A DNA stretch of 35,587 nt from Candidatus Amesbacteria bacterium GW2011_GWC1_47_15. Lineage in GTDB: Bacteria > Patescibacteriota > Microgenomatia > CAZETR01 > Amesbacteraceae. The notes beneath the pieces are model-generated. The model worked only from the letters and a program-made list of their open reading frames with translations, did not search any database and had not been told where the DNA came from. Position numbers and translations under genes: made by a program. The DNA lies in assembly GCA_001001375.1 (NCBI GenBank), contig LCNU01000011.1, positions 1 through 35,587 of the forward strand, given 5' to 3'. Below, piece by piece: positions 6,440-31,970 of the stretch. How positions within the stretch are numbered: position 1 is the stretch's first letter; the number at the start of each line of letters is the position of its first letter.

Positions 6440-8797
6440 ATGGCCTCAAAACAGCATATTAAGACTGTCAGAGAGAGAAACCTTGCCCGGGCGGTCAAGA
6501 CCCTCAAACACTCAAAATTTACATTCCGCTCTCTTTTCTCCTCCCGCATACCTTTTAAATATAAATTTTTCACAGCATCTTTCGGTTTATTGATTCTTAT
6601 AATCGGTATGAGTATCTATTTATTTTGGGGTCTGCCCAATCCTCTCAATCTCACTCGTCACCCTTCGCCCGCATCTACCAAACTTCTGGATCGCCATGGC
6701 AGTTTGATTTATGAAATTTTCGCCGATCAGCGCCGCACTCCAATCAAGCTGGGCACACTCCCGGACTATGTCTGGCAGACTACTATTGCCGCGGAGGACA
6801 GGGATTTTTACAAACACAGCGGTTTTTCTCCGCGTGGTATCGGCCGCGCTTTTATCAGCACTTTTATCCGCCGCAAGGTTCAGGGAGGTTCCACTATTAC
6901 CCAGCAGTTGGTAAAGAAAGCGCTCCTCTCAGATGAAAGGACGCTAAAACGTAAAATCCGCGAGTTCACGCTGAGCGTGGCAGTGGAAATGCTTTATTCC
7001 AAAGATCAGATATTGGAAATGTATTTAAACCAGGTCCCATACGGAGGTACCGCCTATGGTCTGGAATCTGCCGCCCGGACATATTTCGGAATTTCAGGAA
7101 GCGAACTTTCTCTGGCGCAGGCATCTCTGCTTGCCGGTCTGCCGGCCGCCCCCACTTATTATTCCCCTTTCGGTGCCTACCCCGAAAGAGCGGTGGACCG
7201 CCAGAAATATGTCCTCTCCCAAATGCGCGATATTGGTTATATAGATTCCGGGCAGTATGATTCGGCTTTGAAAGAAACCCTGGCCTACACGCCGTCTTCT
7301 ACCATGCTGGCCCCCCATTTTGCCCTTTATGTCAAAGACCTGCTCGTGGATAAATACGGGTTGGAAAAAGTTGAGCAGGGAGGGCTGGTAGTTACCACTT
7401 CCCTGGATTTAGACCTTCAGCAATACGCCCAGGAGGTTGTCGCTTCCGAAACTGCCAAACTGGTCCGCGAAAACGTGCGCAATGGTGCCGCCCTGACTAT
7501 CCACCCGCCTTCAGGTGGAATACTGGCCATGGTTGGATCCAGAGATTATTTCGATACCGGAAACGACGGCAATGTTAATGTGGTTTTAGCCCGACGCCAA
7601 CCCGGATCCGCCATCAAACCGGTCAATTACGCTCTCGGCTTGGAACGCCGTCTTATTACTCCTGCCACTCTTCTGGCGGACAAACCTACATGTTTTTCCC
7701 AGGTAGGACAGAAACCGTATTGTCCCGATAATTACGACAACTCATTTCATGGAGCCACCCAAGTCAGGTTTGCACTCGGAAATTCCTACAACATTCCGGC
7801 TGTCAAAACACTTGTAATAAATGGCCTGACGGATTTCATTAATGCCGCCCCCGCGTTTGGATTGAAGACTTTTAAAGATCCCGACCAGTATGGTCCTTCC
7901 ATCACTTTGGGCGGAGGCGAGGTAACCATGCTTGATCTGGCAACTGCGTATTCCGTCTTTGCCAATGCCGGCAAAAGGGTAGATACTCAGCCGCTTATTT
8001 CCGTCCGGGACCAATCCGGAAATACCCTGGAGTCAATACCTCTAAAGGAAATCTCCCAGGAAGAATACGAAAAGGCGGGTAGATTTGCCCGTATTACCAT
8101 CGGATCCAAAAAATACCTACCCGAAAATCCTCCCAATACCCGGGTAGTCTCGGCCGGTACCGCCTTTCTCATATCTCATATCCTCTATGACAACGGCGCC
8201 CGTTCCACTACTTTTGGTTCGGTATCCCAACTTAATATCAAAAACCATCCCGAAGTCTCCGTCAAAACCGGAACCACCAACGACAAGCGCGATAATTGGA
8301 CCATCGGTTACAACCCGGATATTCTGGTCTCAGTCTGGGTAGGTAACAACGATAACTCTCCCATGAGCAGGGTGGCATCGGGAGTTACCGGCGCTTCTCC
8401 CATCTGGAATAAAATCATGACCCATACTCTTGATGGTAATCCCCAGTCCTGGCCTACCCAGCCGGCCGAAGTAGTGGGAATTTCAGTCTGTTCTACCTCC
8501 GGCCTCCGGGTACCGGAAAACCCTGACGCCGCTTGCTCACCCCGTTTTGAGTACGTTCTTTCCGGTACCCAGCCGCCTTACGACAGCGGAAACCGGCGGG
8601 ATATACATATATATAAACCGACCCAGGGATTGGCAACAGCCAAACAAATTTCTGAAGAACCCGATCAGGTGGAAATGCAAAATCATGCGGTCGTCTTTGA
8701 TGCTCTGGGGACTATGCTGTGTGTGGACTGTGCCGGCGGCGGTTTCGGACAGGACACCATCCGCCTGGACGGCACCGGCAAAGCCATAAAAAACTGA
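6440..8797 (+). CDS. class A penicillin-binding protein (bifunctional transglycosylase/transpeptidase), copy 1
   Basis: The 785-residue PBP1A-type enzyme polymerises and cross-links peptidoglycan outside the membrane. A basic cytoplasmic tail is followed by a membrane anchor (about 43-64). The GT51 transglycosylase domain has AAEDRDFYKH (Glu119), GGSTITQQLVKK and EMYLNQVPYGG. The transpeptidase domain has SAIK (Ser390, Lys393), SYN (449-451) and KTGT (609-612). The C-terminal 130 residues carry four or more cysteines and are not part of the catalytic core. All catalytic motifs are intact. It is followed after 85 bp by a paralogue in the same orientation. Confidence 0.95.
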   Translation: MASKQHIKTVRERNLARAVKTLKHSKFTFRSLFSSRIPFKYKFFTASFGLLILIIGMSIYLFWGLPNPLNLTRHPSPASTKLLDRHGSLIYEIFADQRRTPIKLGTLPDYVWQTTIAAEDRDFYKHSGFSPRGIGRAFISTFIRRKVQGGSTITQQLVKKALLSDERTLKRKIREFTLSVAVEMLYSKDQILEMYLNQVPYGGTAYGLESAARTYFGISGSELSLAQASLLAGLPAAPTYYSPFGAYPERAVDRQKYVLSQMRDIGYIDSGQYDSALKETLAYTPSSTMLAPHFALYVKDLLVDKYGLEKVEQGGLVVTTSLDLDLQQYAQEVVASETAKLVRENVRNGAALTIHPPSGGILAMVGSRDYFDTGNDGNVNVVLARRQPGSAIKPVNYALGLERRLITPATLLADKPTCFSQVGQKPYCPDNYDNSFHGATQVRFALGNSYNIPAVKTLVINGLTDFINAAPAFGLKTFKDPDQYGPSITLGGGEVTMLDLATAYSVFANAGKRVDTQPLISVRDQSGNTLESIPLKEISQEEYEKAGRFARITIGSKKYLPENPPNTRVVSAGTAFLISHILYDNGARSTTFGSVSQLNIKNHPEVSVKTGTTNDKRDNWTIGYNPDILVSVWVGNNDNSPMSRVASGVTGASPIWNKIMTHTLDGNPQSWPTQPAEVVGISVCSTSGLRVPENPDAACSPRFEYVLSGTQPPYDSGNRRDIHIYKPTQGLATAKQISEEPDQVEMQNHAVVFDALGTMLCVDCAGGGFGQDTIRLDGTGKAIKN

Positions 8798-8882: not shown

Positions 8883-11153
8883 ATGCCGCCTATTAGAATA
8901 TTTAGAAACTTACGCCGTCCCACTCTCCGTAATTTCCTTAAGTCGCTTTACTTCTTAAAACTCTCACTTCACGCTTTCAAACTACCCCGGCTTTCTCTAC
9001 CCGGTCTTCGTCTTTCACCTCCTGTCCGCAGGGCTGTAACGTTTTCCGTACTTTTGACAATTATCCTTTCAAGTCTCTTTACCTATCAATATCTATTCAA
9101 AGATCTGCCCTCCCCTGGCAGCCTATCCTCTCAGGCCCTTCCCCAGACCACTCATATCCGGGATCGCAATGGCACTGAATTGTACAAAATATATTCCGGC
9201 CAAAACCGTACACTGGTCCGGCTGTCGGAAATGCCTCCCTACGTCATCCAGGCTACGCTCAGTATTGAAGACAAGGACTTTTATCACCATCGCGGTTTCT
9301 CCCCCAACGGCATCCTCCGGTCTCTGATCCAGAATATCAAATGCAAAATGACAAATGATAAATGCGTAAATCCCCTTCAAGGGGGATCCACCATTACCCA
9401 GCAGCTGGTCAAGACTGCCCTGCTGTCTCCCGAACGCACCCTGCGACGTAAAATCCGGGAACTGGTCCTCTCACTGGCCGTGGAAAACCGCTATTCCAAG
9501 GATGAAATTTTAGAAATGTATTTAAACCAGGTAGGCTATGGGGGAGCCGCTTATGGTATTGAAGAAGCGGCACAGACTTATTTCAGCAAACCCGCAAAAA
9601 ACTTAAATTTCGCGGAGGCGACACTTTTAGCCGGATTGCCGGCCTCTCCCACTACCTACTCCCCTTTCGGTATCTATCCCGAAAAGGCTATTGCCCGCCA
9701 GCAGGAAGTGCTTCGCCGTATGACAGAAGACGGTCTCATTACCTGGGAACAAGCAGAAGCTACCGCCGCGTATCAATTGAAATTCCGCCCTCCGGTGGGT
9801 AATCTCAAAGCTCCCCATTTTGTCATGTACGTCAAAGATTTGCTGGCCCGTAAATACGGCACCGATATTGTGGAACAGGGAGGACTGGACGTCACCACGT
9901 CCCTGGACTATGAATTGCAGGAGGAAATCGAAAAAATCGTCGCTTCAGAGACGGAAAAAATTGCCAGATTAAACGTAAAAAACGGAGCTGCTCTCGTCAC
10001 TAATCCCGGAACCGGTGAAATTCTGGCCATGGTAGGTTCCCGCGATTATTTCGATCAGGAAAACGATGGCCAGGTAAATGTGACGCTGGCATTACGCCAA
10101 CCGGGATCTTCAATCAAACCGGTCAATTACGCTTTGGCACTCAGCCGGAATTTTAATCCCGCCTCCGTAATAGAAGATTCCCCCGTTACTTACCGTATAC
10201 CGGGCTCCCCTCCCTACACCCCGGTCAATTATGACGGCCGCCTGCACGGCCGGGTTACACTCAGAACCGCCCTCGGATCATCCTACAACATTCCCGCGGT
10301 CAAGTTACTGGCTGCCAACGGAGTGCCGAACATGATAGAGCTCGGGCGCAAAATGGGAATTACTACCTGGGACGAATCCGGCCGGTTCGGTTTATCCCTT
10401 ACTCTTGGAGGAGGTGAAGTAACCATGCTGGATATGTCGGTATTATATGGGGTTTTTGCCAATCAGGGGCAAAGGGTGGATTTACATCCCGTACTTTCGG
10501 TTCGGGACTCCAAAGGCAATTTGCTTGAAAAGTTCAGCTGTCCTGATTCTGATGTTGAAAGCACTTCATGTTCCGGCACTCGTGTGCTGGATCCCTTAGT
10601 GGCTTTTTTGATTTCGGACATCCTCTCGGACAACCGCGCCCGCACCCCCGCTTTCGGACCACGTTCCCAGCTTTATATTCCCGGCTCTCCTGTAGCCGTC
10701 AAGACAGGCACTACCAACAATCTGCGTGACAATTGGACTATTGGCTTTACTCCGGACCACCTCGTTGCAGTCTGGGTGGGAAATAACGACAATACTCCCA
10801 TGAGTTATGTCGCTTCAGGGGTTACAGGTGCATCCCCCATCTGGCGCGCCGTTACGGACCTCCTGCTTAAAAAACTACCCTTTACCGGATTTGCCCCTCC
10901 TGTAGGTTTAAACAAAGTCGCTATTTGCGCACTCACAGGACAACTTTCCTGTTCTGCCTGTCCCACGAGCTATGAATATTTCCTGCCGGGAACGGAACCG
11001 AAATCCGCCTGCAGTGAAGAAACCTTCAAGCACTTGGCTAAAGACGGCAAAGCCAATGTCGACAATCTATTAGAGGGCTTGTCTACCGAATCAGTCACCC
11101 TGCCCACTCCCGTCCGGGGTAACCCTCTTCGCAAACCCAATCGCAGCCGTTAA
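8883..11153 (+). CDS. class A penicillin-binding protein, copy 2 (tandem paralogue)
   Basis: The 756-residue protein has the same layout as the gene before it: membrane segment at about 51-70; GT51 motifs LSIEDKDFYHH (Glu129), QGGSTITQQLVK and EMYLNQVGYG; transpeptidase motifs SSIK (Ser409, Lys412), SYN (467-469) and KTGT (607-610). The two copies align through both catalytic domains, so they arose by duplication, but they differ at the N-terminus and at the cysteine-containing tail. Compared with copy 1, this protein has about eight extra residues just before QGGSTITQQ (see the insertion at 9333-9377). The upstream gap shows no strong promoter, so it is probably cotranscribed with copy 1. 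Confidence 0.95.
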   Translation: MPPIRIFRNLRRPTLRNFLKSLYFLKLSLHAFKLPRLSLPGLRLSPPVRRAVTFSVLLTIILSSLFTYQYLFKDLPSPGSLSSQALPQTTHIRDRNGTELYKIYSGQNRTLVRLSEMPPYVIQATLSIEDKDFYHHRGFSPNGILRSLIQNIKCKMTNDKCVNPLQGGSTITQQLVKTALLSPERTLRRKIRELVLSLAVENRYSKDEILEMYLNQVGYGGAAYGIEEAAQTYFSKPAKNLNFAEATLLAGLPASPTTYSPFGIYPEKAIARQQEVLRRMTEDGLITWEQAEATAAYQLKFRPPVGNLKAPHFVMYVKDLLARKYGTDIVEQGGLDVTTSLDYELQEEIEKIVASETEKIARLNVKNGAALVTNPGTGEILAMVGSRDYFDQENDGQVNVTLALRQPGSSIKPVNYALALSRNFNPASVIEDSPVTYRIPGSPPYTPVNYDGRLHGRVTLRTALGSSYNIPAVKLLAANGVPNMIELGRKMGITTWDESGRFGLSLTLGGGEVTMLDMSVLYGVFANQGQRVDLHPVLSVRDSKGNLLEKFSCPDSDVESTSCSGTRVLDPLVAFLISDILSDNRARTPAFGPRSQLYIPGSPVAVKTGTTNNLRDNWTIGFTPDHLVAVWVGNNDNTPMSYVASGVTGASPIWRAVTDLLLKKLPFTGFAPPVGLNKVAICALTGQLSCSACPTSYEYFLPGTEPKSACSEETFKHLAKDGKANVDNLLEGLSTESVTLPTPVRGNPLRKPNRSR
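9333..9377 (+). repeat. low-complexity in-frame insertion inside PBP copy 2
   Basis: The segment encodes residues 151-165 and is built from repeated AAATG/CAAAATG-like words, then a near-palindrome ATCCCCTTCAAGGGGGAT runs from it into the following QGG codons. The paralogue has about 8 fewer residues here, and no similar words occur in the flanking coding sequence. It reads as a small repeat that entered the gene without breaking the frame. Confidence 0.45.
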
Positions 11154-15329: not shown

Positions 15330-15749
15330 ATGGGAAAACCCCTTGAAGTCGAAACCAATTTCCCTGCCGGGACTTTATTTGACCGGGTGGTTCTTGGTCA
15401 TACACGCGAAAATAGGGTTGGTCACGCTTACTTCCCCGCTGATGAAAAATTGCTGGAACTCGTTGATGAATTTCTGGTTTCAGCCGACGCCGGCTTCAGT
15501 AAATCAAAAGAATTTGTTCAGAATTTACGCAATGGTCACCTCAACTTTCCTGCCTCGGATATTTTCAACCCCGATGTACGTAACGCAGCCTTAGTATACC
15601 GTGCCCTCACGGCCGCCGGGCTGAAAACAAACCAACTACCGGAAGTTCAAGCCGGGTTCAGAGGGATTTTGGCGCACGATGTTGAAATATCTGCTGAATA
15701 TATCGATGCTGCCAAAAAATTTACGAGGAGTCTTGGCAGTCCTGACTAA
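15330..15749 (+). CDS. hypothetical protein, 139 aa
   Basis: The protein is soluble and mixed in charge, with no membrane segment or motif I recognise. It begins KPLEVETNFPAGTLFDRVVLGH, and the second half is helix-like (ISAEYIDAAKKFTRSLG). A well-formed leaderless-type promoter precedes it, which supports it being a true gene. It is the only plus-strand gene between 11982 and 18484, and its stop overlaps the stop of the convergent PfkB gene by 4 bp. No function can be proposed. Confidence 0.65.
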   Translation: MGKPLEVETNFPAGTLFDRVVLGHTRENRVGHAYFPADEKLLELVDEFLVSADAGFSKSKEFVQNLRNGHLNFPASDIFNPDVRNAALVYRALTAAGLKTNQLPEVQAGFRGILAHDVEISAEYIDAAKKFTRSLGSPD

Positions 15750-16729
15750 ATCTCCTCCGCGTTTATTCCTGCATTTCTTTCCAGCCACTCCTGCATTTTT
15801 TCCGTTGTTAAAAGCCCGGCCTGCGGTCCGATCTGTCCGAGGACCGACGCGCTGTTGCACGACCCCCATTTCAATGCTTCCGTCAAAGGTTTCCCGGCGA
15901 TCAGCGCCCCCAGTGTTCCCGAACCAAATGCATCCCCCGCTCCAGTCCGTTCGATTACGGGTGCCGGCACGGGCGGCATGTGCCGGTATTTCTGACCGTC
16001 AAATGCGTATGCCCCTTCCGGCCCGTCGGTAATAATAGCTGTTTTTGGACCCAATTTTCTTAAACCCCCCAGAAGATCTTTTATCTCGCTCGCCGGATCC
16101 ATATTTATCAGATTGGCAGTTTCTTCCCGGTTCACAAATATCACTTCAGTTGCTTCATATGCATACCCTAACGGTTCGACCCCTGCCTTTATTTGTCTGG
16201 TCCCCGGGTTAAATGCCAGCTTCACACCGTGCTGTTTGGCCCACTCTACTGCGTCCCTGTAAAAACTTTCATACCCCAGACCCATTGAGGTCAGATACAT
16301 CCAGTCTGCCTCCAGGTCAGCTTCCTTGGGAAAACAGCATAATGACTCCGGGTAATATGAAAGTATCGTTCTCTCCTCCTGATAATTGATCACTACCCCG
16401 AATCCGTATTTTCCCGGCTGTATCTCTATATGGTCAGTATTTATCCCTTCCTCTTTTAAAACCTCCATTGCCCGTTTGTCTGTCCATCCGTCTCCCATAG
16501 CGCCGATCATAGCTGCTTTGAGCCCAAGTCTGGATAACCCTACGGCATTGTTTCCCGTATTCCCCCCTATGGCAAATTCAATTCCTTTAACAGCGATTTT
16601 TTCCCCGAATCCCAGCTCGATCAAGCATCTCTTGCGGTCAATGCTGCAAATTTCATTCACCTCGTCATCCGGCAGCCGCACAAAACAATCCATCCGGGCG
16701 GGACCTAATGAAAGAACATCAAATTTCAT
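15746..16729 (-). CDS. PfkB/ribokinase-family carbohydrate kinase
   Basis: From the ATG at 16729 the protein has 327 residues, normal for the family. It has GGNTGNNAVGLSRLG (about 54-68) for sugar binding and RTGAGDAFGSG (261-271) with catalytic base Asp266 and the anion hole. FDVLSLGPARMDCFVRL at the N-terminus and NREETANL (200-207) are typical. The family phosphorylates sugars or nucleosides (ribose, fructose, fructose-6-P, adenosine); the exact substrate is not readable. A frame extension to 16804 exists, but the -10 TAATAT with TGT upstream lies 7 nt before 16729, so I reject the longer form. It lies downstream of the class I aldolase, so a hexose role is possible. Confidence 0.9.
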   Translation of the reverse strand: MKFDVLSLGPARMDCFVRLPDDEVNEICSIDRKRCLIELGFGEKIAVKGIEFAIGGNTGNNAVGLSRLGLKAAMIGAMGDGWTDKRAMEVLKEEGINTDHIEIQPGKYGFGVVINYQEERTILSYYPESLCCFPKEADLEADWMYLTSMGLGYESFYRDAVEWAKQHGVKLAFNPGTRQIKAGVEPLGYAYEATEVIFVNREETANLINMDPASEIKDLLGGLRKLGPKTAIITDGPEGAYAFDGQKYRHMPPVPAPVIERTGAGDAFGSGTLGALIAGKPLTEALKWGSCNSASVLGQIGPQAGLLTTEKMQEWLERNAGINAEEI

Positions 16730-16767: not shown

Positions 16768-16936
16768 CTGCGTCGTAAATATGTTTTTGAACTAGCTTAC
16801 GCAACCCGCCACTGGTAAATTATTTGAATGCGAATATTTTGGCGGGTGAGTATGCAAATAACGCTTGGGAAAAATACGTCGGAATTCCCCCAAACGAAAG
16901 CGATTATTGGTAGTGAAAAAATATATTAAGACGCAG
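16768..16936. repeat. structured intergenic repeat, copy 1
   Basis: The core hairpin is GCTTACGCAACCCGCC (16795-16810) pairing with GGCGGGTGAGTATGC (16841-16855), one C-G pair shorter on both arms than in the other two copies. Outside it, CTGCGTC at 16768-16774 and GACGCAG at 16930-16936 begin an imperfect outer inverted repeat of about 26 bp, with TAGTGAAAAAATATATT as the 3' arm. The element fills the gap between the aldolase and PfkB genes. No coding potential is apparent. Confidence 0.75.
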
Positions 16937-16940
16937 AAAA

Positions 16941-17708
16941 TTAAAAAATTATCCCTGCTATTTTCCTGGCTAATTCCACTGGTTTCTCCGCCTGCCAGAT
17001 ATTCCGTCCCACAGCCCATCCTATAGCCCCTGCCTCTAGAATTTCCCCCGTTTTTCTTAAGAAAGTTTCCTCATCTGTTTTGCTTCCCCCCACCGCCAGC
17101 ACTTTCACTTTCCCGGCAGCCGCCACTACCCACTTCATAGACTCCACGTCCCCCGTATATGCCACCTTCACCATATCTGCACCCAATTCCAAAGCAATCC
17201 GGGCTGCATATGCCAGATTTTCTTTGCTGTGTTCATTTTCACCGATATGTTTGCCCCTCGGATACGCCCACAATATTACCGGCAGCCCTGCGTCATGCGC
17301 TTCCTCCTGAATTCTGGAAAATTCGGCAATACTCTCTCCTTCTCTCTCGCTTCCCACATATATCGTATAGCCCACCCCTGCCGCCCCCAGTTCCACAGCT
17401 TCTTCTACACTGCAGTTTTGGGGAGAAAAAAGTTCCTCCCCCGAATGATATCCTGTCTTGCCGTTAAGCTTTACCACTAAGGGCGTCTTATACACACCTT
17501 TCCGGTAATACTTTTCCGCCACTCCTTTTTGCACTGCAATACAGGTAAACGCATCGGACTGTTCCGCAATATCAAACACATACTGCGGGTCAATCGCTTG
17601 CCCTGAGCCCGCCGAAGGGTTGAAATCGGTAGGCCCATGCTCAAACCCATGATCGTAAGCCAGCAAAAGCGCTCTCCCGTTTCTGGTTATTTTGGAAAGA
17701 TCCACCAT
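16941..17708 (-). CDS. class I fructose-bisphosphate aldolase, archaeal (DhnA/FbaB) type
   Basis: The 255-residue Schiff-base aldolase cleaves fructose 1,6-bisphosphate to DHAP and glyceraldehyde 3-phosphate. It has LLLAYDHGFEHGP at the N-terminus, VILWAYPRGKHI in the middle, DMVKVAYTGD with the presumed Schiff-base Lys181, and AVGGSKTDEE as the phosphate loop. The length is typical for the DhnA family and unlike the class II metal enzymes. Residues 30-38 (NPSAGSGQA) are a translated repeat (separate entry). An extended -10 lies 6 nt before the ATG. With TPI, GAPDH and PGK elsewhere in the window it covers the core of glycolysis. Confidence 0.93.
   Translation of the reverse strand: MVDLSKITRNGRALLLAYDHGFEHGPTDFNPSAGSGQAIDPQYVFDIAEQSDAFTCIAVQKGVAEKYYRKGVYKTPLVVKLNGKTGYHSGEELFSPQNCSVEEAVELGAAGVGYTIYVGSEREGESIAEFSRIQEEAHDAGLPVILWAYPRGKHIGENEHSKENLAYAARIALELGADMVKVAYTGDVESMKWVVAAAGKVKVLAVGGSKTDEETFLRKTGEILEAGAIGWAVGRNIWQAEKPVELARKIAGIIF
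17595..17621 (-). repeat. in-frame REP-like repeat peptide in the aldolase gene
   Basis: These 27 bp encode NPSAGSGQA (residues 30-38) between DHGFEHGPTDF and IDPQYVF, where I would expect a short loop. On the minus strand the core reads CCTTCGGCGGGCTCAGGGC. This is close to a widespread palindromic repeat containing CCTTCGGCAGGCTCAGGG that is often found in candidate-phyla genomes (my recollection). It is carried without a frameshift. Confidence 0.7.
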
Positions 17709-28473: not shown

Positions 28474-28520
28474 TTGCTACCATTTTACTATTACTTATAT
28501 CTCTATTTCATTGAAAATAG

Positions 28521-28584
28521 GTTCTAACACCTGCCTGCAGGTTTACCCGCCGGCAGGAGAGCAGACAGGAAGTTTACCAGTTAC
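28521..28584. repeat. 64-bp direct repeat, left copy, flanking the toxin-antitoxin pair
   Basis: 61 of 64 positions match the copy at 29373-29436. It contains internal inverted repeats: CCTGCCTGC near the start and GCAGACAGG near the end, with CCGCCGG in the middle. Both copies are in the same orientation. Confidence 0.85.
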
Positions 28585-29319: not shown

Positions 29320-29372
29320 CATGGATTTTGAAAAAAGTTCATACATTTTCCATCCAAGTCTAAATAAAATAA

Positions 29373-29436
29373 GTTCCAACACCTGCCTGCCGGTTTACCC
29401 GCCGGCAGGAGAGCAGGCAGGAAGTTTACCAGTTAC
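29373..29436. repeat. 64-bp direct repeat, right copy, upstream of the antitoxin promoter
   Basis: This copy begins GTTCCAACACCTGCC and ends AAGTTTACCAGTTAC, and matches the copy at 28521-28584 except at three positions. In this copy CCTGCCTGC ... GCAGGCAGG and CCTGCCGG ... CCGGCAGG are perfect inverted pairs. Confidence 0.85.
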
Positions 29437-29468: not shown

Positions 29469-29608
29469 AGGCAGCAGGTTGCCTTTTCGTGCAGCTTACG
29501 CAGCCCCGCCCAGGTATATTTTTTTATTTCTCGGTTTTTGGCGGGGTGAGTATGCAGATAATGCCGGGGGTAAAACTTGAAACATAAAGAAAGAGCAGCC
29601 TGCTGCCT
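29469..29608. repeat. structured intergenic repeat, copy 2
   Basis: The outer arms are AGGCAGCAGG (29469-29478) and CCTGCTGCCT (29599-29608), extending inward with a few mismatches to about 18 bp. The core hairpin is GCTTACGCAGCCCCGCC (29494-29510) with GGCGGGGTGAGTATGC (29540-29555). Here an A-U pair of copy 3 becomes G-U. The outer-arm sequence is unrelated to that of copies 1 and 3. With the right direct repeat it accounts for the 332-bp gap between the antitoxin and pgk genes, where I see no gene. Confidence 0.75.
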
Positions 29609-29615
29609 AAAACCA

Positions 29616-30545
29616 TCAGGACGTCTTTACAGCTTCCAAACCCACAAGCGTCCCGGCTGCCAGAAACTCCAGCATCGCTCCCCCGCCCACGCTTACCCAA
29701 TCGAACTTATCCCTTAATCCGTATTTTACTATGGCAGATTCCCCGTCTCCACCCCCCAACACTTTATACGCCCGGCCGTTGTTGGCAATTGCCGTCATAA
29801 TTTCCTTAGTCCCTTTCTCCGCTGCCGGATCTTCAAACTTACCCATCACACCCGCTACCACTATGACATCCGCTTTTTCAATTTCACTCTTAAACATTTC
29901 GATTGTCCCCTCATCCAGATCAAGCATGTCTTCTCTCAACTTTGCCAGCATGAAATTATTCGGAATTTTATAGTCATATTTGCTGTATTCTGCCGGAATC
30001 CTTCCCCCTAAAATCACTTTGTCAAACCGGGGTGCAAGCCTGACTGCATAACCCAGCTTGTCTTTTACTTTTATTCCCGATACGGCCAAAAGCTTCCTTC
30101 CCGGCTTGTTAAGTACTTGCGAAAGCATCTCCATTTCTTTGGCAAATCTCAAACCTATACACACTTCTTTTTCCTGGTTGGCCATGACCTCGGGCAATGC
30201 GCAGATTGATGTATGTCTCCTGTGGCTGGTGGCGAAAGCTTCGTTTACATATATATCAAATCCTTCAGCCAGCTCCCGGGCCATTTGTTCACTGTTTTCT
30301 TCTTCCCGGGGGTCCTCTCTGATATCTCTGATTGTCTCCACCCCCAACTGTTCGGCCACCCACTCCCTTCCTTCATGACCGATCACTTTTATTCTCCCCG
30401 CTCCCTTTGACTCCAGATAGGAAACTATTTCTTTTGCCGCCAGAAACCTTTGTCCTGACTCACCCGCCTCTACTTCCAGGTCCGCCCGAACCAGTACCTG
30501 TTTCCCCTCCGTCTCTACCTCACTGATTATCTTTATGTTTTTCAT
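29616..30545 (-). CDS. pgk: phosphoglycerate kinase, shortened and divergent
   Basis: From the ATG at 30545 the protein has 309 residues, against about 390 in ordinary PGK. Recognisable elements are QVLVRADLEVE, VIGHEGREW (for the usual HLGRP), YVNEAFATSHRRHTSICALP, GVMGKFEDPAAEKGTKEI, VLGGGDGESAI and VSVGGGAMLEFLAAGTLVGLEAV. The nucleotide and hinge motifs are present, so activity is plausible; the missing length is mostly in the N-terminal lobe. A longer frame to 30560 exists. The gene overlaps the rpiB end by 26 bp and forms an operon with rpiB and the SDR gene. Confidence 0.88.
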   Translation of the reverse strand: MKNIKIISEVETEGKQVLVRADLEVEAGESGQRFLAAKEIVSYLESKGAGRIKVIGHEGREWVAEQLGVETIRDIREDPREEENSEQMARELAEGFDIYVNEAFATSHRRHTSICALPEVMANQEKEVCIGLRFAKEMEMLSQVLNKPGRKLLAVSGIKVKDKLGYAVRLAPRFDKVILGGRIPAEYSKYDYKIPNNFMLAKLREDMLDLDEGTIEMFKSEIEKADVIVVAGVMGKFEDPAAEKGTKEIMTAIANNGRAYKVLGGGDGESAIVKYGLRDKFDWVSVGGGAMLEFLAAGTLVGLEAVKTS

Positions 30546-30993
30546 ATACCGCCTTCTCAAATCTTTCGATTTTCTCCAATCTCCTCAGATATTTGTCCGA
30601 TTCCACAAATTCCGTTTCAAGAAACTTTTCCACCAGTCTCAATGCTTCCTCTTCCGTCGCATTATCCGAAGCCAGGGCCAGTATGTTGATATTGTCATCT
30701 TTTCTCGCTGCGTGCACCTGGTCTTCGGCAAACCCCAGTCCGCACCGGATACCTCTGACTTTATTTGCCGCAATATCCACTCCCACTCCGCTGCCGCAAA
30801 TAACAATCCCCCTGTTTCCGGCAGGGTTTTGCGCTGTTTTTTGGGCTACTTCAATTGCAAAATCCACATAATCATCATCCCGCTGATATTCAAATGTTCC
30901 CACATCTTCAAATCCGTATTCCCGGCCTTTTAAAAACCGGCTTATCGTCCCCTTAAGTTCAAATCCCCGGTGATCCGCCCCGATATAAATCAT
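30520..30993 (-). CDS. rpiB: ribose-5-phosphate isomerase B (RpiB/LacAB family)
   Basis: The 157-residue protein starts with MIYIGADHRGFELK and has GIVICGSGVGVDIAANKVRGIRC with catalytic Cys66, ARKDDNINILALAS, and a helical C-terminal extension (about 135-157) rich in charged residues. It interconverts ribose 5-phosphate and ribulose 5-phosphate. It follows the SDR gene by 4 nt and overlaps pgk, so the three are one transcription unit. Together with Rpe and the split transketolase it makes up the non-oxidative pentose phosphate branch here. Confidence 0.95.
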   Translation of the reverse strand: MIYIGADHRGFELKGTISRFLKGREYGFEDVGTFEYQRDDDYVDFAIEVAQKTAQNPAGNRGIVICGSGVGVDIAANKVRGIRCGLGFAEDQVHAARKDDNINILALASDNATEEEALRLVEKFLETEFVESDKYLRRLEKIERFEKAVYEKHKDNQ

Positions 30994-30997
30994 TGCC

Positions 30998-31693
30998 CTA
31001 TCTTAATACATACCCGCCGTTAATATCCAGACATGTTCCTGTAATATGCGCCGCTTCTTCCGATGCCAAAAAATAAATTCCGGCCGATATATCCTCCGGT
31101 TCCGCCATTTTTCCCAGAGGAATCGCTGCTATTCTCTGCTCTAGTTCAGAGGGTCCCCATCCTTTGTTCCCCATATCCGTGTTCACAATTCCCGGTGCCA
31201 CGCAGTTTACCCTGATTCTCGGCGCCAGGGCCATGGCCATGCTTTTGGTAAAACTCCACACTGCGCCCTTGCTGGCCGCGTAAATCGGATCCATACTACC
31301 TGCCTGGGCAGCTGTCGAACACAAATTTACCATCGATCCCCTTTCCATCATCTCCAGTATTTTTTTTGTGCACAGATACACCCCCAGCTCATTGACTTTT
31401 ATAACGTTTTCCATATCCTCCCTTTCATACCCCTGTAATCTTTTATCCAGCAAAATTCCCGCGTTGTTTATCAGGCAGTCCACCCGGCGGCAGTCCCGGT
31501 GAGCCGTCTCAAATCCCCGGGAAATGCTTTCCCAGTCGGTTACATCCAGCTGGTAATAACTAACATTCTCAATTTCCGGTCCGGGAGAATTTCTGTAAAA
31601 GGCGACTACTTTCCAACCGTTTGCCGCAAATTTTTTCGCCGTTGCCAGTCCTATCCCCCTCGCCGCCCCCGTAATAAAAACCACCTTTTCCAT
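30998..31693 (-). CDS. short-chain dehydrogenase/reductase (FabG-like)
   Basis: From the ATG at 31693 the protein has 231 residues. It has VFITGAARGIG (5-15) for NAD(P) binding, LINNAGIL (74-81), Ser126, and YAASK with Tyr138 and Lys142. VAPGIVNTDM and TGTCLDINGGYVL at the C-terminus are classical SDR features. The sequence is close to 3-oxoacyl-ACP reductases and sugar dehydrogenases; with rpiB and pgk downstream a sugar substrate is possible but not shown. An ATG three nucleotides earlier (31696) is the other start candidate. Confidence 0.9.
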   Translation of the reverse strand: MEKVVFITGAARGIGLATAKKFAANGWKVVAFYRNSPGPEIENVSYYQLDVTDWESISRGFETAHRDCRRVDCLINNAGILLDKRLQGYEREDMENVIKVNELGVYLCTKKILEMMERGSMVNLCSTAAQAGSMDPIYAASKGAVWSFTKSMAMALAPRIRVNCVAPGIVNTDMGNKGWGPSELEQRIAAIPLGKMAEPEDISAGIYFLASEEAAHITGTCLDINGGYVLR

Positions 31694-31706
31694 CATTTAA
31701 ATAATA
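31694..31706 (-). promoter_or_regulatory. -10 element TATTAT 7 nt before the ATG at 31693
   Basis: TATTAT lies at 31701-31706 on the minus strand. Of the two adjacent ATG codons, the second (31693) has the 7-nt spacing seen at the other leaderless starts. Confidence 0.4.
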
Positions 31707-31741
31707 CTACATTTCATACCCGGTCGCATAAAGGAGTTGTG

Positions 31742-31895
31742 GATATATTTTTTCACTAGCTTACGCAACCCCGCCCGGTATAAATATTAAAATGACAAAG
31801 GTATTTGGCGGGGTGAGTATGCAGGTAACATCAGGAACAAATGCGCATTATTACGTATAAACAGCAGATGATTACCGATAGTGAAAAAATATATC
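31742..31895. repeat. structured intergenic repeat, copy 3, with perfect 17-bp terminal inverted repeats
   Basis: GATATATTTTTTCACTA (31742-31758) and TAGTGAAAAAATATATC (31879-31895) are perfect inverted copies. Inside, GCTTACGCAACCCCGCC (31759-31775) pairs with GGCGGGGTGAGTATGC (31807-31822). The right arm is nearly identical to that of copy 1, and AGACGC follows both. The element lies between the divergent SDR and membrane-protein genes, which leave a 277-bp gap. I see no gene in it. Confidence 0.8.
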
Positions 31896-31970
31896 GAGAC
31901 GCCTGAATTACCTGTCCGGCAACAACGTAAATCATGCGGTTGCCAATAGTTGCTGTAAAATCACAAGTGG

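Follow-up and report, generated by a model that had tools for sequence, protein, structure and literature searches.

The three palindromic repeats of the window, by which we mean the whole 35,587-nucleotide stretch analysed (contig C11 of Candidatus Amesbacteria bacterium GW2011_GWC1_47_15, hereafter G000; 914 kb, 88% complete), belong to a previously unlisted element family, in which the fold is kept while the sequence changes almost completely. On balance, we favour the view that these elements, about 140-170 bp in size, form a family of non-autonomous mobile palindromic elements of Microgenomates (Patescibacteria), and we infer their mobility from a comparison that rests on one genome per species. 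This reading draws on covariation in the stems, the balance of G·U and A·C appositions, neighbours that differ from copy to copy, empty sites in relatives, an insert within tgt, patchy distribution, an antisense bias, and the Y1/RAYT-like genes of G000. The window copies and their parts are as follows, R2 and R3 being the second- and third-round covariance models described below.

16768-16936, + strand: copy 1, whole element, with ends CTGCGTC...GACGCAG; R2 and R3 matches at 16772-16932 (147.6 and 142.2 bits), and fold
16795-16855, + strand: copy 1 hairpin P2, shorter by one C-G pair
16857-16908, + strand: copy 1 hairpin P3, AATAACGCTT/AAGCG-A-TTATT
29469-29608, + strand: copy 2, whole element, with P1 arms at 29469-29488 and 29589-29608; R2 match at 29471-29613 (91.1 bits), and fold
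29494-29555, + strand: copy 2 hairpin P2, with A-U changed to G-U
31736-31904, + strand: copy 3, whole element; R2 and R3 matches at 31736-31900 (153 and 148.4 bits), and fold
31742-31758 and 31879-31895: copy 3 P1 arms, 17 bp, perfect pairing
31759-31822, + strand: copy 3 hairpin P2
31824-31876, + strand: copy 3 hairpin P3, GGTAACATC/GATG-A-TTACC

All three copies share GCTTACGCARCC(C)CGCC and GGCGGG(G)TGAGTATGCARRTAA, exactly the core that an initial annotation had described at these sites. Its finer points also held: copy 1 lacks one C in the left arm and one G in the right arm, copy 2 carries a G-U pair in place of the A-U of copies 1 and 3, and the G·A and U·U oppositions are present in every window copy. 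Single-strand folding of copies 1 and 3 yielded a three-way junction made of an outer stem, P1, and two hairpins, P2 and P3, with P3 beginning one base 3' of P2. P2 is interrupted by a bulged A and by the G·A and U·U oppositions, and P3, of the form RRTAA..TTAYY in these two copies, by a conserved bulged A. In copy 2, P1 and P2 are retained and the right arm of P3 is deleted; its outer arm is, as previously stated, unrelated in sequence to those of copies 1 and 3, yet pairs over about 20 bp. The bulged A of P2, hairpin P3 itself and its partial deletion in copy 2 had been missed. Compared with 200 dinucleotide shuffles, the folding energies of the window copies gave z scores of -3.5, -6.3 and -2.8.

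The iterated covariance-model search that the initial annotation had proposed enlarged its three-copy family, correct for the window, to 18 copies in 8 genomes, five of them in G000. A P2 model built from copies 2 and 3 only recovered copy 1 (E 6e-13), together with five copies from three further genomes of the family to which G000 belongs: three in Ca. Amesbacteria RBG_19FT_COMBO_48_16 (G013), one in Ca. Amesbacteria GW2011_GWB1_47_19 (G008) and one in Microgenomates Gr01-1014_16 (G002). R2, a full-length model of these eight copies, revealed a second subfamily, with two copies on another contig of G000 (C4) and one on contig C29 of G013. R3, a third model run against 373 genomes of the class, added seven further copies from four genomes of two other families. 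Presence is patchy, with strong matches in four of 14 family genomes and eight of 373 class genomes. What stays fixed across the fold is the CGCAG/CGAG bulge in P2, a bulged purine in P3 and CGGT at the P3-P1 junction. The two weakest R3 matches (G023 and G207; E 2e-4 to 5e-3) are without the core motifs. Weak core-model matches in G003 (L035) and G267 (L040) were dropped, as full-length models did not recover them, and a pattern match in Stenotrophomonas (L043) was judged to be due to chance. Copies within a genome are 40-68% identical, so that no recent burst is seen and the family is either old or repeatedly acquired; the lack of a burst counts against mobility. Rfam 15 gave no match at gathering score in the window, and a cmscan of four copy-holding loci from other contigs and genomes returned nothing up to E 1; no tRNA, tmRNA or known RNA family was matched. 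Carriage by plasmids or phages was also considered: copy 3 had no match in plasmid or phage records, and viral contigs held no exact-pattern match.

Covariation in the stems is pervasive. In an alignment fitted to the model, which took in every match (20 distinct rows, the two weak ones with E 2e-4 to 5e-3 among them), two-sided changes occurred at 37 of 40 pairs, and the changed cells comprised 207 two-sided against 15 one-sided changes. The covariation score was 0.637, compared with 0.183 +/- 0.014 in shuffles, none of which reached the observed value, and at most 0.103 with slid partners. A hand-anchored stem alignment of eight copies, independent of covariance-model fitting but with its P3 arms placed by eye, showed two-sided changes in 13 of 27 pairs, with 200 of 201 cells pairing. 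The two-sided changes in both alignments establish selection for, or templated maintenance of, complementarity. The earlier proposal of selection on structure, which called for statistically significant covariation in a larger alignment and would have failed had the repeat been the end of a known insertion sequence, is thus supported: the covarying pairs persist with more copies, Rfam provides no match, and the Pfam-scanned flanks contain no transposase.

Is this pairing kept in RNA or in DNA? RNA helices normally contain far more G·U than A·C. Counted without four internal-loop columns and without the weakest matches G023 and G207, the 18 copies have 579 Watson-Crick, 13 G·U and 12 A·C appositions in their stems, whereas a control set of 12 tRNAs, encoded on contigs of the same genomes or of related ones, has 236, 15 and 0, respectively (element versus tRNA, Fisher p 0.001). 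The excess of G·U expected of a structured RNA is hence not seen, and neither strand displays RNA-like wobble. With G·U and A·C equally rare, the pairing looks like that of DNA rather than RNA; as the counts are low and come from related copies, the comparison falls short of full independence and carries moderate weight. We regard it as moderate evidence, derived from the sequences, that complementarity would be kept at the DNA level, as a cruciform, as a folded single strand, or by one arm being templated on the other. These counts bear on a rather unlikely alternative, namely that the elements are a structured non-coding RNA that acts in trans or lies antisense to the operon, kept for its RNA fold and spread by duplication and horizontal transfer. 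Such an RNA would account for the very strong covariation, for the conserved bulges and tandem G·A internal loops, which are also common in RNA, for the antisense placement relative to flanking operons in 12 of 13 cases, and for copies as old as the subfamilies with their fold intact. It fits poorly with G·U being no commoner than A·C (13 versus 12, against 15 versus 0 in tRNAs), with the absence of a common neighbour or pathway and of the element itself from most relatives, and with the lack of any Rfam relative even at E 1. Given the DNA-like symmetry, covariation alone is here no proof of a functional RNA.

The genomic contexts of the copies are diverse. In the window, the following genes adjoin them.

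15746-16729, - strand: pfkB-family kinase gene (Pfam PfkB, E 1.5e-36), downstream of copy 1 in gene direction, start codon 39 nt away
16941-17708, - strand: DeoC/LacD-type aldolase gene (Pfam DeoC, E 1.5e-41), stop codon abutting copy 1
29616-30560, - strand: phosphoglycerate kinase gene (Pfam PGK, E 1.8e-56), stop codon abutting copy 2
30998-31696, - strand: short-chain dehydrogenase gene (Pfam adh_short_C2, E 2.1e-52), start codon 40 nt from copy 3

The recurring neighbour that the initial annotation had suggested looking for did not emerge, since the Pfam-scanned flanks differ at all 18 loci: DeoC-type aldolase/pfkB, PGK, dehydrogenase, a holin-like gene, a TraG-like ATPase, tgt, TIM/cupredoxin, LOG/transketolase, xerC/tRNA-editing, MFS, PCMT/Pth, Mur ligase/HAD, Wzy, DinB, glycosyltransferase/GH57, two RimK genes, NrdR/nrdJ and a divergent gene pair without assignment. 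The gene named LOG here is presumed to be one from its translated sequence. Relatives lack the element at several of these junctions. Where they carry the aldolase and pfkB genes side by side, as in G013, the gap between the two leaves no room for it; the TraG-like junction is empty in G008; and the LOG/transketolase junction holds an element in G008 and none in G000 or G013. What G013 has at this last junction is another palindrome, about 110 bp long and different from the element (L108:659-767, G013:C45).

Each of the three copies in the window has glycolysis or pentose-phosphate genes next to it, which raises the idea of a cis-regulatory leader of sugar-metabolism genes. Copies 1 and 3 do end about 40 nt before the pfkB and dehydrogenase start codons, and two copies elsewhere lie ahead of such genes, that of G008 before transketolase and one of G013 before TIM. 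However, other copies are next to tgt, Pth/PCMT, NrdR/nrdJ, RimK, glycosyltransferase, TraG-like, Mur ligase and DinB genes, and the orthologous aldolase/pfkB and LOG/transketolase junctions of relatives do without the element. This idea is also contradicted by context, the window being itself a glycolysis gene cluster, and we consider it very improbable.

Where a copy sits between two co-oriented genes, it is antisense to them in 12 of 13 cases and sense in one (G002; two-sided p 0.003), in a test devised post hoc and with some flanking ORFs (for example in G175 and G000:C4) called without Pfam support. Usually, 3-30 nt separate the upstream stop codon from the element's 3' end. Copies are also clustered: three of the five G000 copies fall within 15.2 kb (random-placement p 0.004), and same-orientation pairs flank one to three genes, namely PGK-RpiB-SDR between window copies 2 and 3, Pth-MFS in the G000:C4 pair and a small ORF in the G175:C1 pair. 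This arrangement recalls attC, whose sequences are diverse but fold as single strands into a site that has an RYYYAAC/GTTRRRY core and conserved extrahelical bases guiding strand choice by IntI (PMC3053210). Like attC, the element is a diverse folded site placed after a stop codon in a fixed orientation. A recombination site of an integron-like system, folded as a single strand, would thus explain the few to 30 nt that separate copies from the upstream stop codon, the shared relative orientation (12 of 13), the kept fold of diverse sequences, the clustering and the same-orientation pairs. Against it, the element forms a three-way junction and is not found in cassette arrays; no RYYYAAC/GTTRRRY core pair was seen by eye at the aligned ends; no integron integrase adjoins a copy, with only a XerC-like gene beside the G002 copy; and the enclosed genes are core genes, with PGK and the dehydrogenase near each other in relatives that lack the element. 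We therefore judge an integron-like site quite improbable.

The initial annotation had called its three copies intergenic, which is true of the window but not of the whole family, because one copy of G013 lies inside tgt (Pfam TGT, E 2.5e-122). There it is in frame, without stops, and adds about 52 amino acids to a loop; the nine relatives aligned have a shorter loop and no insert. The corresponding frame contains 0-6 stops in the other copies, and no reading frame is consistently open through the copies (all but the last were examined in both cases). These stops argue that the tgt copy is a tolerated insertion rather than a coding element, and from the sequence comparison it is best explained as the arrival of a small mobile palindromic element. 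In G010, G000 and G009 (L052-L061), in-frame inserts of other origins occupy this same loop, which therefore resembles a hot spot for short insertions that keep the frame.

Among known repeats, the best reading is that the element behaves like ERIC, RPE or REPIN and is a member of none. ERIC sequences are recognised by a shared sequence consensus; our elements, by contrast, share fold more than sequence, form a three-way junction and number 1-5 per genome, and it is this description, together with the null Rfam result, that sets ERIC apart. In other respects they are alike, both being small imperfect palindromes between operon genes without a transposase of their own: ERIC/IRU repeats of enterobacteria are such palindromes of 100-200 bp, with an orientation-dependent effect on the mRNA of operons (PMC2229807). 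Rickettsia palindromic elements (RPE), of about 105-150 bp, occur between genes and also in frame inside conserved protein genes (PMC2229807, PMC10969869), as does our copy in tgt. RPE have a conserved open frame and are often inserted in genes, whereas of our 18 copies only one lies within a gene, and none of the frames is open in general; the recurrent in-frame insertion with one conserved open frame that marks RPE is not observed. The intergenic CIR elements of Caulobacter likewise possess two hairpin arms, joined as described by a linker (PMC2229807), where our element has a closing outer stem. REP sequences are imperfect hairpins whose bulges mark one strand as single-stranded DNA, processed by TnpA-REP (PMC8266576). 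Our element resembles REP and REPIN in its bulged, imperfect hairpins and in the presence of RAYT-like genes in G000, but is Y-shaped, measures about 150 bp rather than units of 20-40 bp, and has no RAYT gene beside any scanned copy. Nor does it show the conserved unpaired GTAG at the hairpin foot: TAG is confined to some members of subfamily 1, where its bases are paired as part of P1.

By analogy with these systems, the element is probably processed as folded single-stranded DNA. We propose that it would move in trans in this form, the fixed bulges marking the strand to be used by an HUH (Y1/RAYT-like) transposase or a recombinase. The arms themselves vary freely in sequence yet remain Watson-Crick complementary. 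The orientation bias could reflect insertion into one replication or transcription strand; alternatively, sense insertions that disturb operon mRNA, as reported for ERIC, may be removed. A bolder version, which we think unlikely, pictures a Y-shaped, hairpin-telomere-like single-stranded DNA mobile element whose arms would be re-templated on each other during movement, renewing the sequence and keeping Watson-Crick pairing near perfect, and which some enzyme in Patescibacteria would mobilise.

G000 encodes three Y1/RAYT-like genes, at C22:3977-4708, C3:11311-12030 and C17:10423-11169. The first matches Y1_Tnp (5.4e-9) and scores 54.9 bits with NCBIfam REP_Tyr_transpos, below the cut-off of 80; the C3 and C17 genes are paralogues (phmmer). 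The associated transposase or RAYT-like gene suggested for checking was looked for beside the copies and not found: no Pfam-scanned copy flank contains a transposase, none of the three genes is flanked by the repeat, and the five G000 copies lie on C11 and C4. No autonomous element was found sharing the GYGTC...GACRC ends of several subfamily-1 copies, and no target duplication could be defined, the orthologous empty sites being too diverged. The C22 gene is preceded by two CACCTCGGGGGTG palindromes (six in the genome), different from the element, and the C3 gene lies between copies of a AAGGATACTCCTT-type palindrome. A retron-like msr-msd RNA, with its long a1/a2 stem and UAGC before the first hairpin, is suggested by the Y-shaped fold and by TAGC directly after the outer stem in copies 1 and 3. 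However, TAGC is not conserved in copy 2 or in other subfamilies, and G000, at 88% completeness, has no reverse transcriptase (RVT_1, PF00078) match, while control matches were obtained in three reference genomes. This origin is largely refuted and its probability close to negligible.

If the mobile-element reading is true, the streamlined genomes of Patescibacteria would host their own old class of miniature palindromic elements, with a three-way fold preserved through near-total sequence change, placed one way round after genes, and tolerable even inside a conserved enzyme. For RNA discovery, the family is a caution that overwhelming covariation may stem from DNA palindromes, which a comparison of G·U with A·C helps to tell from RNA folds.

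Other features were observed along the way. Many glycolysis and pentose phosphate pathway genes are gathered at 12000-35000 of the window, comprising the C half of transketolase, RpiB, PGK, the DeoC-type aldolase and the pfkB-type kinase by Pfam and, by reading of the translation, the N half of transketolase, GAPDH, TIM and RPE genes. In G013, a gene for a 23S rRNA intervening-sequence-type protein (L113:1975-2322, G013:C29) is located between dehydrogenase and TIM, near one copy. On either side of a PIN-domain toxin gene and a weak Phd/YefM-like antitoxin gene, the window has a 71-bp direct repeat (28514-28584 and 29366-29436) that is 94% identical, rich in GC and palindromic in part. Finally, 6440-8797 and 8883-11153 are adjacent paralogous genes, 71-78% identical in blocks, which appear by eye to encode penicillin-binding proteins.
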